A stretch of DNA of 64,000 nt from Eubacteriaceae bacterium (lineage in GTDB: Bacteria; Bacillota; Clostridia; Eubacteriales; Eubacteriaceae), in NCBI GenBank assembly GCA_030156895.1, contig JASGLP010000001.1, positions 1-64,000 on the forward strand. Reading direction: 5' to 3'. This document shows positions 3,924-46,929 of this stretch, one piece after another; the first letter of the stretch is position 1, and each line of letters opens with the position of its first letter. The notes under the pieces are model-generated. The model had not been told where the DNA came from and made no database searches. It saw only the letters and a list, made by a program, of their open reading frames with translations. Position numbers and translations under genes: made by a program.

Positions 3924-4599
3924 TTCCCCATACCACCTTTAAATATTTTGGTTCTTTAGGATTGATTTCTATTTTCTCGCGAATTCGCCGGATGTGTACC
4001 ATGACAGTGTTTTCAACCGAATGGGCAGTTTACTGCCAGACATTTTCATAGATTTTTTCGGCCGAAAAAACCATGCCGGGATAGGTCATCAGAAAATTGA
4101 GAATATTGAATTCTGTATGTGTCAGTTTTACCAGCTCACCGTCAACATAAAAACATTTTGTATCCTGATCCAGTGTCAGACCGCCCACCTGAAGAATCCC
4201 CTGCTTATTGTTGCGCCAGGCATCACCTAACTGCATATAGCGTCTGAGCTGGCTTTTCACTCGGGCCACCAGTTCCGGAGGGTTAAAGGGTTTGGTGATA
4301 TAATCGTCGGCGCCGATAGAGAGGCCAAGGATTTTATCAGAATCTTCTGACTTTGCTGACAGTAAGATTACAGGAATATTTTTCGAGTCGCGGATTTTCA
4401 TTAAAGTTGAAAGCCCGTCCAGTTTAGGCATCATAATATCCAAAATGATCAGTTGGAATGAATTTTGTTCGATTAAGGCAATGGCTTCAAGACCATTTAA
4501 AGCTATGGACACTGCATATCCTTCAAGTTCAAGCAGTTTTTTTATGGCCATGGCGATATCGCGGTCATCGTCAACGACAAGAATAGTGACTGTTTTCAT
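3898..4599 (-). pseudogene. OmpR-type response regulator with in-frame TAA at codon 190
   Basis: The open part (4599 to 4030, 189 aa) has the receiver residues VVDDDRD, Asp54 in LDIMMPKLDG and Lys103 in YITKPFNPPEL, plus the first half of a winged-helix domain ending YENVWQ. A TAA follows. The same frame then continues without a shift as TAHSVENTVMVHIRRIREKI and ends at a TAG at 3898-3900, giving 233 codons, the normal OmpR/PhoB length. The residues after the stop include the DNA-recognition helix, so the truncated product should not bind DNA normally. A single GAA to TAA change would explain it. A sequencing error is possible. Confidence 0.85.
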
Positions 4600-31041: not shown

Positions 31042-31674
31042 ATGTCACAAATTGCAGAAGTAAAAACAATGGTTGAAACCGGAAAATCAAAAAAAGTAGG
31101 CGCAGCTGTACAGGCCGCTTTGGATGCAGGGATTGCTGCTCAGACAATTCTTGATGGCATGATCGAATCTATGGGCGTTGTCGGCGAAAAATTCTCAACC
31201 GGCGAAATCTTTGTCCCGGAAATGCTGATCGCTGCTAAGGCTATGTCTAAAGGCGTTGAAGTGTTAAAACCGGTTATGGCAGGTGAGAACTCAACTTCTT
31301 TGGGAACCTGTATTATGGGAACGGTTGCTGGAGACTTGCATGATATTGGTAAAAATCTGGTTGTTATGATGCTTGAATCTTCAGGGTTTGATATGGTCGA
31401 TTTGGGTGTTGACGTACCAGCTGATAAATTTGTAGAAGCTGTTAAAGAGAATGAAAATGTCGTATTAGTTGCCTGCTCTGGTCTTCTGACAACTACTATG
31501 CCAGCGCTAAAAGAAGCAGTACAAACAGTTAAAGCTGCTTATCCAAACCTGCCGGTTATTGTTGGGGGCGCACCTGTAACACCAGAATATGCCGCTGAAA
31601 TTGGAGCTGACGGATATGCTCCTGATGCTGGTTCTTCTGCTTCGAAAGCAAAAGAACTGATTAATAAAGCTTAA
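31042..31674 (+). CDS. Corrinoid protein (MtaC/MtvC-type) 4
   Basis: A 210-aa protein: an alanine-rich helical cap and a cobalamin domain with GDLHDIGKNLV (Asp98-x-His100-x-x-Gly103), CSGLLTTTMPAL and VIVGGAPVTPEYAAEIGADG. The last block is the closest relative here of the fragment at 9373. It is the final gene of the PucR-2 controlled trio and the methyl carrier between methyltransferase E and the enzyme at 30141. Confidence 0.95.
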   Translation: MSQIAEVKTMVETGKSKKVGAAVQAALDAGIAAQTILDGMIESMGVVGEKFSTGEIFVPEMLIAAKAMSKGVEVLKPVMAGENSTSLGTCIMGTVAGDLHDIGKNLVVMMLESSGFDMVDLGVDVPADKFVEAVKENENVVLVACSGLLTTTMPALKEAVQTVKAAYPNLPVIVGGAPVTPEYAAEIGADGYAPDAGSSASKAKELINKA

Positions 31675-31721
31675 TTTTAGAAAGGGGCGATGTGGTTTTA
31701 AACACGGTTGAATAAAAAATC

Positions 31722-31750
31722 TTGACAAAGCCATGTAATTCATCTAAACT
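31722..31750 (+). promoter_or_regulatory. Promoter of the riboswitch-CDF transcript
   Basis: TTGACA (31722-31727), 17-bp spacer, TAAACT (31745-31750). It is placed ~20 nt before the structured leader, as expected for a riboswitch transcript. Confidence 0.7.
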
Positions 31751-31769
31751 ATATTCATTTGAAGTGTAA

Positions 31770-31867
31770 ATCTGACAGACAAATCAAAAATGATTTGCTG
31801 GGCCGTTTTGGCAACAGGTGAAAGTAATGCATCTGTGGGACAGCGATTGTCCTGCGGATGTTTTTTT
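31770..31867 (+). ncRNA. Probable NiCo (czcD-type) riboswitch with terminator
   Basis: The leader contains the hairpins AAATCA/TGATTT (31781-31796) and GCC/GGC (31802-31812). The segment CATCTGT (31830-31836) can pair either with ACAGGTG (31814-31820) or, as the start of a 13-bp terminator stem, with bases 31848-31860 followed by T7. That is a textbook exclusive switch. The stretches GACAGAC, GGTGAAAGTAATGC and GTGGGACAGCG, and the CDF-type metal exporter gene downstream, fit the Ni2+/Co2+ riboswitch class as I remember it. Class assignment is from memory, not a covariance search. Confidence 0.65.
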
Positions 31868-31881
31868 ATTAAGAAAAAGAA

Positions 31882-32542
31882 ATGAAGAACTTGATGGGAA
31901 AGATGGACAGAAAATCCCGGGTTGCATTATTGTCGGTTGGCTCTAATTCGGCCCTGGTCATTTTAAAGATTGTGGCCGGGATTTTAAGCGGTTCGATCAG
32001 TATCATATCGGTAGCGGTCATGGTTTTTTTTCGGGATCGTTAATTTCTTTGTCTCGCAAAAATTACTCAAAGTCTCGGTGGAAGAAGATTCGCAGGCACT
32101 GGCAGCCGATGCCCTGCATTTAAAAACCGATGTCTATACTTCTTTGGGATTTGGTGTACTGCTGGTAAAAATAACCGGGTTTTATATTTTGGATCCGATT
32201 GTTGCTATTATGGTGGCGCTCTTGATAATCAAAGAAGCATGGCATTTAACGACAGGTGCTTTTAATTTCCTGATTGATGTAAAATTGTCGGATGAAGAAG
32301 AGGCTCAGGTGATTGAAGTTATTGAAGCTCATCGGGAGTCTTTTATCGAATGCCATAAATTAAAAACCAGAAAAGCCGGTAATAGCAAACATATTGATTT
32401 TCATATTACTGTTCCGGAGGAGATGTCCGTTGGGGAAGCCCATTGCATTATTGGAATGATTAAAAAGGATATGAATGAAATAGTGCAGAATACCAGAATC
32501 AGTATTCATATTGAGCCCAATAGCGACGTGATGGTGGGTTAG
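31882..32542 (+). pseudogene. Cation diffusion facilitator (CzcD-like) with internal deletion and frameshift
   Basis: The frame from ATG 31882 encodes a normal CDF N-terminus (MDRKSRVALLSVGSNSALVI, then LSGSISIIS) but stops at 32040-32042. The second frame picks up at about 32033 with GIVNFFVSQKLLKVSVEEDS and continues through ALAADALHLKTDVYTSLGFG to the cytoplasmic C-terminal domain and the stop at 32542. The expected ~70-80 residues between them (second to fourth helices and the first metal-site motif) are missing. The exporter should be inactive, although its promoter and riboswitch are intact. The C-terminal part alone could be made from internal starts. Confidence 0.85.
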
Positions 32543-32614
32543 ACAAATGCGAAAATGAAGATAGTTTGGAAGATTTTGCAAACTGTAAAAGAAAAAAAGT
32601 GGCTTTTAGGAATT

Positions 32615-32664
32615 AAAAAGAGGATCAGTGTATTCAGTTAGATGGAAAACCTGATCCTCTTTTT
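32615..32664. terminator. Bidirectional terminator between the CDF remnant and cysK
   Basis: AAAAAGAGGATCAG (32615-32628) pairs with CTGATCCTCTTTTT (32651-32664), with A and T runs on both sides. It serves both convergent transcripts. Confidence 0.88.
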
Positions 32665-32717
32665 ATTTGGGAAAGTTCGTCATTTTTCACAACGTTTTTC
32701 TGAAAAAGGACTTAGAT

Positions 32718-33623
32718 TTATAATTTAAATAAATCGGTACTCAGATATTTTTCGCCGCGATCCGGGAAGATTACCACAATCAGGCCAGAGTCAATTTTTT
32801 TCGCCACTTCGGCAGCTGCAAACATGGCTGCACCGCTGCTCATGCCGACAAAAATCCCTTCCTGTTTGACAATCTGACGGGCATACTCAAAGGCAACTTC
32901 CGATTCGATCATAATGTGCTCATCAATAAATTCAGGTTGATATAAAGCCGGAACAATGGCTTCTTCCATATTTTTCAGTCCCTGAATATAATGGCCCAAT
33001 TCTGGATAGGCTTCAATGATTTTAACATCAGGGTTATGATGGCGAAGCCCCATGCCAATTCCCATTATGGTACCTGAGGTGCCTAAGGAGGAAACAAGGT
33101 GGGTCACTTTTCCTTGCGTTTGTTCCCATATTTCTTCGGCGGTTGTTGTATAATGGGCCAACTTATTATATTTGTTGCTGAACTGATCAGGATTAAAGTA
33201 GCGGTCAGGGAACTGGGCAGTCAGTTCTCGTACTTTTCTGATCGCACCATCGGTGCCTTCATCAGGTGAGGTTAGAGTAACGGTGGCACCAAAGGCTTGA
33301 ATCATTTTGCGGCGTTCAATCGAGACAGCTTCACTCATGACGATTTCAACCTGGTAGCCTTTGACTGCTCCAATCATTGCCAGACCGATGCCGGTATTAC
33401 CACTGGTTGGCTCGATTATAATTTTGTCTTTGGTTAAAGTTCCTTCGGCTTCGGCCTGTTCAATCATTTTCAGGGCAATCCGGTCTTTGATACTGCCGGT
33501 CGGATTAAAGCCTTCGACCTTGGCCAGAATCTCCACATTTGGGTTGGGATTTAAATGATTTATGCGGACCAGGGGGGTCTGGCCGATAGTTTCCAAAATA
33601 TTGTCATAAACTAATTTCTGCAA
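32718..33623 (-). CDS. cysK: Cysteine synthase (O-acetylserine sulfhydrylase)
   Basis: A 301-aa PLP enzyme of the CysK/CysM fold: substrate loop ETIGQTPLVRINHL, PLP lysine Lys46 in PTGSIKDRIALKM, PTSGNTGIGLAMIG, the glycine-rich phosphate loop SSLGTSGTIMGIGMG and the C-terminal GMSSGAAMFAA. It makes cysteine from O-acetylserine and sulfide. It is monocistronic. A TATAAT box (minus strand, complementary to 33662-33667) lies ~40 nt before the ATG at 33623. No serine acetyltransferase gene is nearby. Confidence 0.94.
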   Translation of the reverse strand: MQKLVYDNILETIGQTPLVRINHLNPNPNVEILAKVEGFNPTGSIKDRIALKMIEQAEAEGTLTKDKIIIEPTSGNTGIGLAMIGAVKGYQVEIVMSEAVSIERRKMIQAFGATVTLTSPDEGTDGAIRKVRELTAQFPDRYFNPDQFSNKYNKLAHYTTTAEEIWEQTQGKVTHLVSSLGTSGTIMGIGMGLRHHNPDVKIIEAYPELGHYIQGLKNMEEAIVPALYQPEFIDEHIMIESEVAFEYARQIVKQEGIFVGMSSGAAMFAAAEVAKKIDSGLIVVIFPDRGEKYLSTDLFKL

Positions 33624-45947: not shown

Positions 45948-46793
45948 TTACTGGTCAATCCCTGAAAATGCCGCATATGCCTGTTCGCTGTGTTCACCGA
46001 TATCCAGACCAACATCTTCGGATTCAGTGTCGACGCGAATTTCCATCGTTTTCTTTAACACAAACATAATCACTGACGTTACAACAACTGCATAAACGAT
46101 GGTGATAATGATCGCCAAAAGCTGGGCGGTCAAGAGTTTCGTGTCACCAAAAAAGAGACCGTCCCACTGAGCCAATGGGTTGATAGCGGTCTGGGCAAAA
46201 AGGTCAGTGGCAATGCCGTCCCAGATACCGCTTATACCGTGGCAACCAAAGGCGACCAGACCAGAGACCCCAGAGCTGGTATGGATAACGTTTCCACCGG
46301 CAAAATCGACAGCGCCGAGGTTCAAATTCAGACCACTTTCACCCCAGACCATGTGTGCCAGCGGAAAATAGACTAGTGTCAGCCAGGTCGCGACAAAGAT
46401 AAACATGGCTTTAAAGCGCATTCGACCAGATAAAGCACCGACCAGGATGGCAGGTGTGATGATACAGAACATCAGCTGAAAAATCGCAAACATGGCACCC
46501 GGGATACCTTGAGCATAGTCGCCTGCTTCGGTGGCATTGATTCCCTTAAAAAGGGCATGGGAAAAATCACCAATGAAGCCAAGGTCTCCGGCATCGGGGG
46601 CGAAAGCCACAGAAAAGCCGAATAAAAACCAGAGAATGGTGGCCAGTCCGCAACAGAAAACCACCGACATTAATGTGTTAATGACATTTTTTCGCCATAC
46701 CATACCGCCGTAGAAAAGGGCAAGGCCGGGCGTCATAAAGAATACAAGCATGGCACAGATCATCATAAAGGCCATATCACCAGAATTGAGCAT
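45948..46793 (-). CDS. amt: Amt ammonium transporter with in-frame loss of a central block
   Basis: A 281-aa protein from ATG 46793 (AGGAGGTAACA box). The N-terminal half is a normal Amt (FFMTPGLALFYGGMV; MFAIFQLMFCIITPAILVGA; GAVDFAGGNVIHTSSGVSGL), but GLV is joined directly to AFGCHGISGIWDGIATDLF, which in typical ~400-aa Amt proteins lies about 120 residues later. The frame is open across the junction (~46250-46262). Both pore histidines (VIH and GCHG) are kept while about four helices between them are absent, an even number that would keep the C-terminus cytoplasmic. It may be non-conducting. Confidence 0.88.
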   Translation of the reverse strand: MLNSGDMAFMMICAMLVFFMTPGLALFYGGMVWRKNVINTLMSVVFCCGLATILWFLFGFSVAFAPDAGDLGFIGDFSHALFKGINATEAGDYAQGIPGAMFAIFQLMFCIITPAILVGALSGRMRFKAMFIFVATWLTLVYFPLAHMVWGESGLNLNLGAVDFAGGNVIHTSSGVSGLVAFGCHGISGIWDGIATDLFAQTAINPLAQWDGLFFGDTKLLTAQLLAIIITIVYAVVVTSVIMFVLKKTMEIRVDTESEDVGLDIGEHSEQAYAAFSGIDQ

Positions 46794-46929
46794 TGTTACC
46801 TCCTGAAATACCGTAATGATATATTTCAGATCACTATAAGTGTGATTGAGTGTCAACCTTTTTAAAACTGACAGTATTCAGCCGCTACTCTTAACCCCAT
46901 TGTTAAGTTGGTTTTTATTTTACCCGCAT

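Follow-up and report, generated by a model that had tools for sequence, protein, structure and literature searches.

A metal riboswitch of the NiCo type precedes a dead exporter gene in the 64-kb stretch of DNA analysed here (the window), which is the start of a 177-kb contig of G000, a draft genome of 2.998 Mb in 101 contigs (85% complete) and the one assembly of its species in the analysis. Very probably the locus is the outcome of ordinary decay: a vertically inherited unit of NiCo riboswitch and CDF gene, hereafter CDF-1, the protein part of which is dead in this species, its loss being tolerated through redundancy. Redundancy and decay together explain the locus better than retention of metal does. 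Within this account we infer redundancy as the cause, the order of the lesions, the identity of the metal and the activity of the riboswitch. The features are listed in Table 1.

Table 1. Features of the NiCo/CDF-1 locus in the window and two further NiCo units of G000
Feature	Position	Strand	Remarks
Corrinoid-protein gene	31042-31674		5' neighbour of the riboswitch/CDF-1 locus
Sigma-70-type promoter	31722-31750	+	TTGACA-17 nt-TAAACT; 10/12 matches
Divergent NiCo-type aptamer	31762-31845	+	P1 CUG/CAG, P2 hairpin, P3 and P4; covariance, held-out genus model, fold
Intrinsic terminator and U-tract	31829-31868	+	Overlaps 3' strand of P4; folding
Terminator-to-ATG leader without Shine-Dalgarno	31869-31881	+	TTAAGAAAAAG; G003 (other short-leader copy) TTGAGGAGG
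CDF-1 pseudogene, 5' part, 53 codons	31882-32043	+	N-terminus and TM1, deletion junction, frameshift, stop TAA
Deletion junction IIS/VAVM	32010-32011	+	76 codons (228 bp) gone; ends uncertain by a few bases
T8 run, +1 frameshift site	32024-32031	+	Comparison with congeneric copies
CDF-1 pseudogene, 3' part, other frame	32033-32542	+	End of TM4, TM5, TM6, C-terminal dimerisation domain
Cysteine-synthase-like gene	32718-33623	opposite	3' neighbour of the CDF-1 pseudogene
NiCo riboswitch, 69 bits	C12:1425		42 nt before open 842-residue P-type ATPase frame; G000
NiCo riboswitch, 72 bits	C64:20656		Before open 296-residue CDF (CDF-2); G000

NiCo riboswitches of the Rfam family RF02683 control CDF and P-type ATPase efflux genes, and the gathering score of the Rfam model is 37 bits. 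The covariance score at 31762-31845 was 29.6 bits (E=2.8e-4 over 1.2 kb and E=1.7e-4 over the genome); as this is below the gathering score, the default Rfam scan of the window gave no match above cut-off. We further applied a genus covariance model of 24 relatives from which the window sequence was left out, and the window aptamer was the single place it found in the 64 kb (E=1.8e-7). The metal riboswitch before a broken CDF gene that the first-pass annotation had proposed was hence confirmed; its start had been given as 31770, but the aptamer begins upstream of that, at 31762. When folded alone, the aptamer has a minimum free energy structure with a four-way junction of P1 (3 bp), P2, P3 and P4, with a weak z of -1.55. 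At the aligned positions, matched by reading the sequence, the window has the guanines that would be the counterparts of the metal ligands, namely the GGG of GGGCC and the GG of GGGAC; the identity of these ligands in NiCo riboswitches is taken from PMC7689651.

As read from its letters, the window aptamer is of the NiCo type, divergent and kept in outline. It is like RF02683 in its P1-P4 junction, its GGGCC/GGCA/GGGAC core, the overlapping terminator and the location before a CDF gene. Unlike RF02683 it scores below the curated threshold, has no 5' ACAGUACAA and controls a pseudogene. The spacer nucleotide of GA-N-CAG, which nearly all of the 24 aligned relatives have, is missing from the window, where the sequence reads CUGA-CAGAC, and CAGGC is replaced by CAGAC, with an A.C position in P2. 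Promoter, aptamer-like folds and terminator were rightly described as preserved in the first reading, but the word intact was too strong, because two highly conserved junction positions differ. With its low score and these two changes the window riboswitch may already be inactive. Among full-length aptamers it scored lowest with the genus model (30 vs 44-96, most of the others being training sequences). In a stricter held-out model, built also without G003, G007 and others, the window and G003 both scored 27.6, and the gene of G003 is undamaged. The low score is therefore no evidence of aptamer decay, and a decaying aptamer was rejected on this ground.

The terminator at 31829-31861 with its T7 had a z of -5.74, and none of 200 shuffles was as good. 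The whole leader folds as the terminator form, and the aptamer alone as P1-P4. The terminator and P4/P1 have CATCTGTGGGAC in common, and the strand CATCTGTGGGACA pairs either in P4/P1 or in the terminator; since the 3' strand of P4 is reused by the terminator, the two structures are mutually exclusive. The same overlap is known from czcD riboswitches, which escape termination once metal is bound (PMC7689651, PMC7917058). From this known mechanism along with the overlap in the window leader, we infer a switch of the following kind. Where relatives have kept the gene undamaged, transcription at low metal would most likely stop at the terminator of the leader, while metal at the four-way junction would hold P4, block the terminator and let the exporter mRNA be made. 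Any read-through mRNA in G000 would be useless, having no Shine-Dalgarno, a frame of 53 codons to the stop and no TM2-TM3.

Judged by its sequence, the CDF-1 gene of the window is a pseudogene and not a shortened functional gene, because it carries lesions of several kinds: loss of the Shine-Dalgarno, the 76-codon deletion, the frameshift and a two-codon deletion in TM5. No single sequencing error therefore accounts for it. A loss of ~70-80 codons with a change of frame had been estimated at first; the count is exactly 76 against each of the eight congeneric copies, and the T8 run adds a +1 shift. The codons absent after 32010 begin with the E of SEAIHSSMD, end at the residue that precedes IAVM, and hold TM2-TM3, the first HxxxD metal motif and DHPYGHGK. 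The frame is continuous across the junction; it breaks at the T8 run and leads to the TAA at 32041-32043. TM5 is two codons short, with its HLKTD motif kept.

The loss of the Shine-Dalgarno at the CDF-1 start had been missed in the first-pass annotation. There the 16S tail pairs with no more than -2.5 kcal/mol, whereas the values of seven relatives range from -8.2 to -12.0 kcal/mol; the median is -9.8 kcal/mol for control genes of the window and -3.2 kcal/mol for random positions, and 63% of the random positions are as good as the CDF-1 start or better. Loss of a long 5' leader was considered as an additional lesion and rejected: the leader of G003 is also short, and therefore only the Shine-Dalgarno counts as a leader lesion. 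The GTG at 32078, where the C-terminal piece would start, has no Shine-Dalgarno above chance either (-0.9 kcal/mol), and the suggestion that the C-terminal part could be expressed finds no support at either start.

The open 3' half had been taken for the soluble domain only, and instead comprises TM5-TM6 and the C-terminal domain. It matches PF01545 with 37.0 bits (profile positions 118-190 of 198) and PF16916 with 65.8 bits (1-77 of 78); a Pfam search of the 5' part alone gave no match. Like CDF exporters (PF01545 and PF16916), the pseudogene has the HxxxD of TM5, TM6 and the C-terminal ZT_dimer domain. Unlike them it has no TM2-TM3 with the first HxxxD, so that the full set of six TM helices, which would carry both halves (HxxxD/DxxxD) of the transport site, is lacking, and with its frame split the product could not form a complete metal site. 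The label czcD-like is not supported: among NCBIfam models, those of MntE and FieF come nearest, but every score is far under the cut-off, and the ligand of NiCo/czcD riboswitches is itself disputed, with Ni/Co set against Fe/Mn (PMC7689651).

An artefact of assembly or sequencing, with a whole gene in the organism and errors behind the missing 228 bp and the shifted frame, would fit the draft state of G000, and the window has a second internal deletion that keeps the frame and lies at a short repeat (133 codons in an amtB-like ORF). We nevertheless hold this to be very unlikely. About 27 of 28 genes are without internal gap or frameshift when compared with the syntenic stretch of the complete genome of the sister species G012, and six other runs of eight A/T are in frame, each within an ORF of the window that agrees with G012 and shows no shift. 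The missing segment is absent from the rest of the assembly, where only paralogues of 36-39% identity were found, and lesions of several types, including the substitution-type loss of the Shine-Dalgarno, would all have to be errors.

Two other genes of the window are also damaged. The amtB-like ammonium transporter (45948-46856, - strand) keeps its frame but is shorter than its orthologue of 444 residues in G012, the deletion being joined at the short repeat in SGVSGLVA/FGCHG. A two-component response regulator (4030-4599, - strand) has an in-frame TAA after 189 codons, and the remaining DNA-binding domain (~40 residues) continues in the same frame past the stop. Either G000 is losing genes or, less likely, the assembly process has introduced short-repeat deletions.

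CDF-1 genes without the lesions of the window were found in 8 of 18 congeners, with 58-60% identity in the shared part, and the copy of G009 runs off its contig. A NiCo match lies upstream of seven of the eight undamaged genes (27.1-41.2 bits), four of them below the 37-bit cut-off (27.1-35.5) and three above (38-41), and the CDF-1 leaders of most congeners have a TTGACA and an A/T-rich -10 upstream, as in the window. The CDF-1 protein of the window is sister to all congeneric CDF-1, with moderate support (88/96 for the others, 82/83 for all nine), and G000 and G012 together take the same sister position in the RpoB tree; vertical descent is the simplest reading of the two trees. The CDF-1 neighbourhoods in the genus are of several kinds, each common to close relatives only and none like 31042-33623 of the window, and no conserved CDF-1 synteny with the window was found in any congener.

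The loss had been proposed to be recent, and relative to the divergence the death of CDF-1 looks fairly recent to us as well. Pairwise dN/dS in the 3' part was 0.11-0.18 where computable, with dS near saturation, compared with 0.03-0.13 among the congeners, and 19 of the 21 columns invariant in all relatives are kept. These values point to constraint for most of the branch and therefore to a late death. That the locus is still useful, either as a metal-controlled short RNA or through a re-initiated TM5-TM6-CTD fragment modulating other CDFs, is hardly credible even though the leader features are there and the C-terminal frame is open and conserved: the GTG has no usable Shine-Dalgarno, the fragment would start within TM4/TM5 without half of the metal site, and a low dN/dS is expected of any recently dead gene.

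The first-pass annotation suggested a need to retain cobalt or nickel as a possible reason for the loss of the exporter, which is not supported. Two NiCo switches that score higher stand elsewhere in G000, each before an exporter-type gene that is intact (Table 1), and efflux capacity is therefore not lost. Within the genus, G000 and its sister G012 alone have full-length relatives of CDF-2 (86% identity between the two; 34% for the next best), preceded by a NiCo riboswitch in both. In the complete genome of G012 neither a CDF-1 gene nor a remnant at the matching flanks was found. An adaptive loss, with CDF-1 inactivated since an organism rich in corrinoids profits from keeping its cobalt or nickel, or some other metal, would agree with the abundance of corrinoid methyltransferase genes in the window and has a precedent in Bordetella pertussis, where a broken manganese exporter behind a riboswitch is beneficial (PMC8546581). 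We find it very improbable here, as the two NiCo-controlled efflux-type genes are intact, CDF-1 is kept by eight congeners of equal closeness and the sister species carries CDF-2 in place of CDF-1. Under ordinary decay the loss would be tolerated because CDF-2 and the P-type ATPase, both NiCo-controlled, remain in the lineage. Neither CDF is present in nine other congeners, and the NiCo-ATPase type is present in nearly all. Several of the 14 congeners that are at least 90% complete have neither CDF-1 nor CDF-2; CDF-1 is therefore dispensable even without CDF-2, and redundancy is thus not the sole possible reason for the loss.

Across the genus a high-scoring NiCo riboswitch stands before a P-type ATPase in nearly all genomes (L043-L056, L060-L063 and L067), and the N-terminus of this ATPase resembles the P2 (calcium-pump) rather than the heavy-metal P1B type. 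NiCo riboswitches with a longer P2 (L062:1501-1613 and L055:1501-1611) were seen in G003 before an ABC transporter, i.e. an ATP-binding protein and an FtsX-like permease, and in G004 before unclear frames, in neither case a CDF or P-type ATPase.

That a riboswitch can stand before a metal exporter in decay is already published, and the window is a further case. In B. pertussis the manganese (yybP-ykoY) riboswitch precedes BP3410, a decayed manganese exporter in which a reversible tandem duplication of 30 bp has abolished function (PMC8546581). Both loci retain a metal riboswitch before a non-functional exporter of the type it should control. They differ in riboswitch class and transporter family, and in the window 228 bp are deleted, the frame is shifted and the ribosome-binding site is gone, so that reversion of CDF-1 is implausible.

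Outside the genus the association of NiCo and CDF-1 was seen in MAGs of Peptococcaceae (41 bits), Desulfotomaculum (25.5 bits, weak) and Gracilibacteria (54.7 bits). In the Gracilibacteria MAG (L004) the riboswitch at 1206-1313 lies before a CDF-1 relative at 1732-2214 that is 54% identical; its in-frame TGA codons fit the Gracilibacteria code with TGA as Gly, and the pair therefore seems transferred and not contamination. Conceivably, if rather doubtfully, the CDF-1 leaders form a distinct and divergent NiCo subclass (no 5' ACAGUACAA, P1 AAG/CUU, UGCUGGGCC junction) that accompanies CDF-1 throughout the genus and in the Peptococcaceae and Gracilibacteria MAGs and is tuned to another metal (Mn/Fe), the sensor still working here. 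The MntE/FieF-like CDF-1 protein hints at such a tuning to Mn or Fe.

If anything here is new, it would lie in this wider set of low-scoring CDF-1 leaders alone. Low-scoring yet consistent, the leaders indicate that the Rfam NiCo cut-off misses real members, and they may help to ask which metal NiCo-type RNAs sense. The locus itself is a snapshot of a riboswitch outliving its gene for a while, with undamaged copies of the gene in relatives and a likely replacement in the lineage, and it advises caution: the rest of the regulon should be searched before the loss of an exporter is read as an adaptation.
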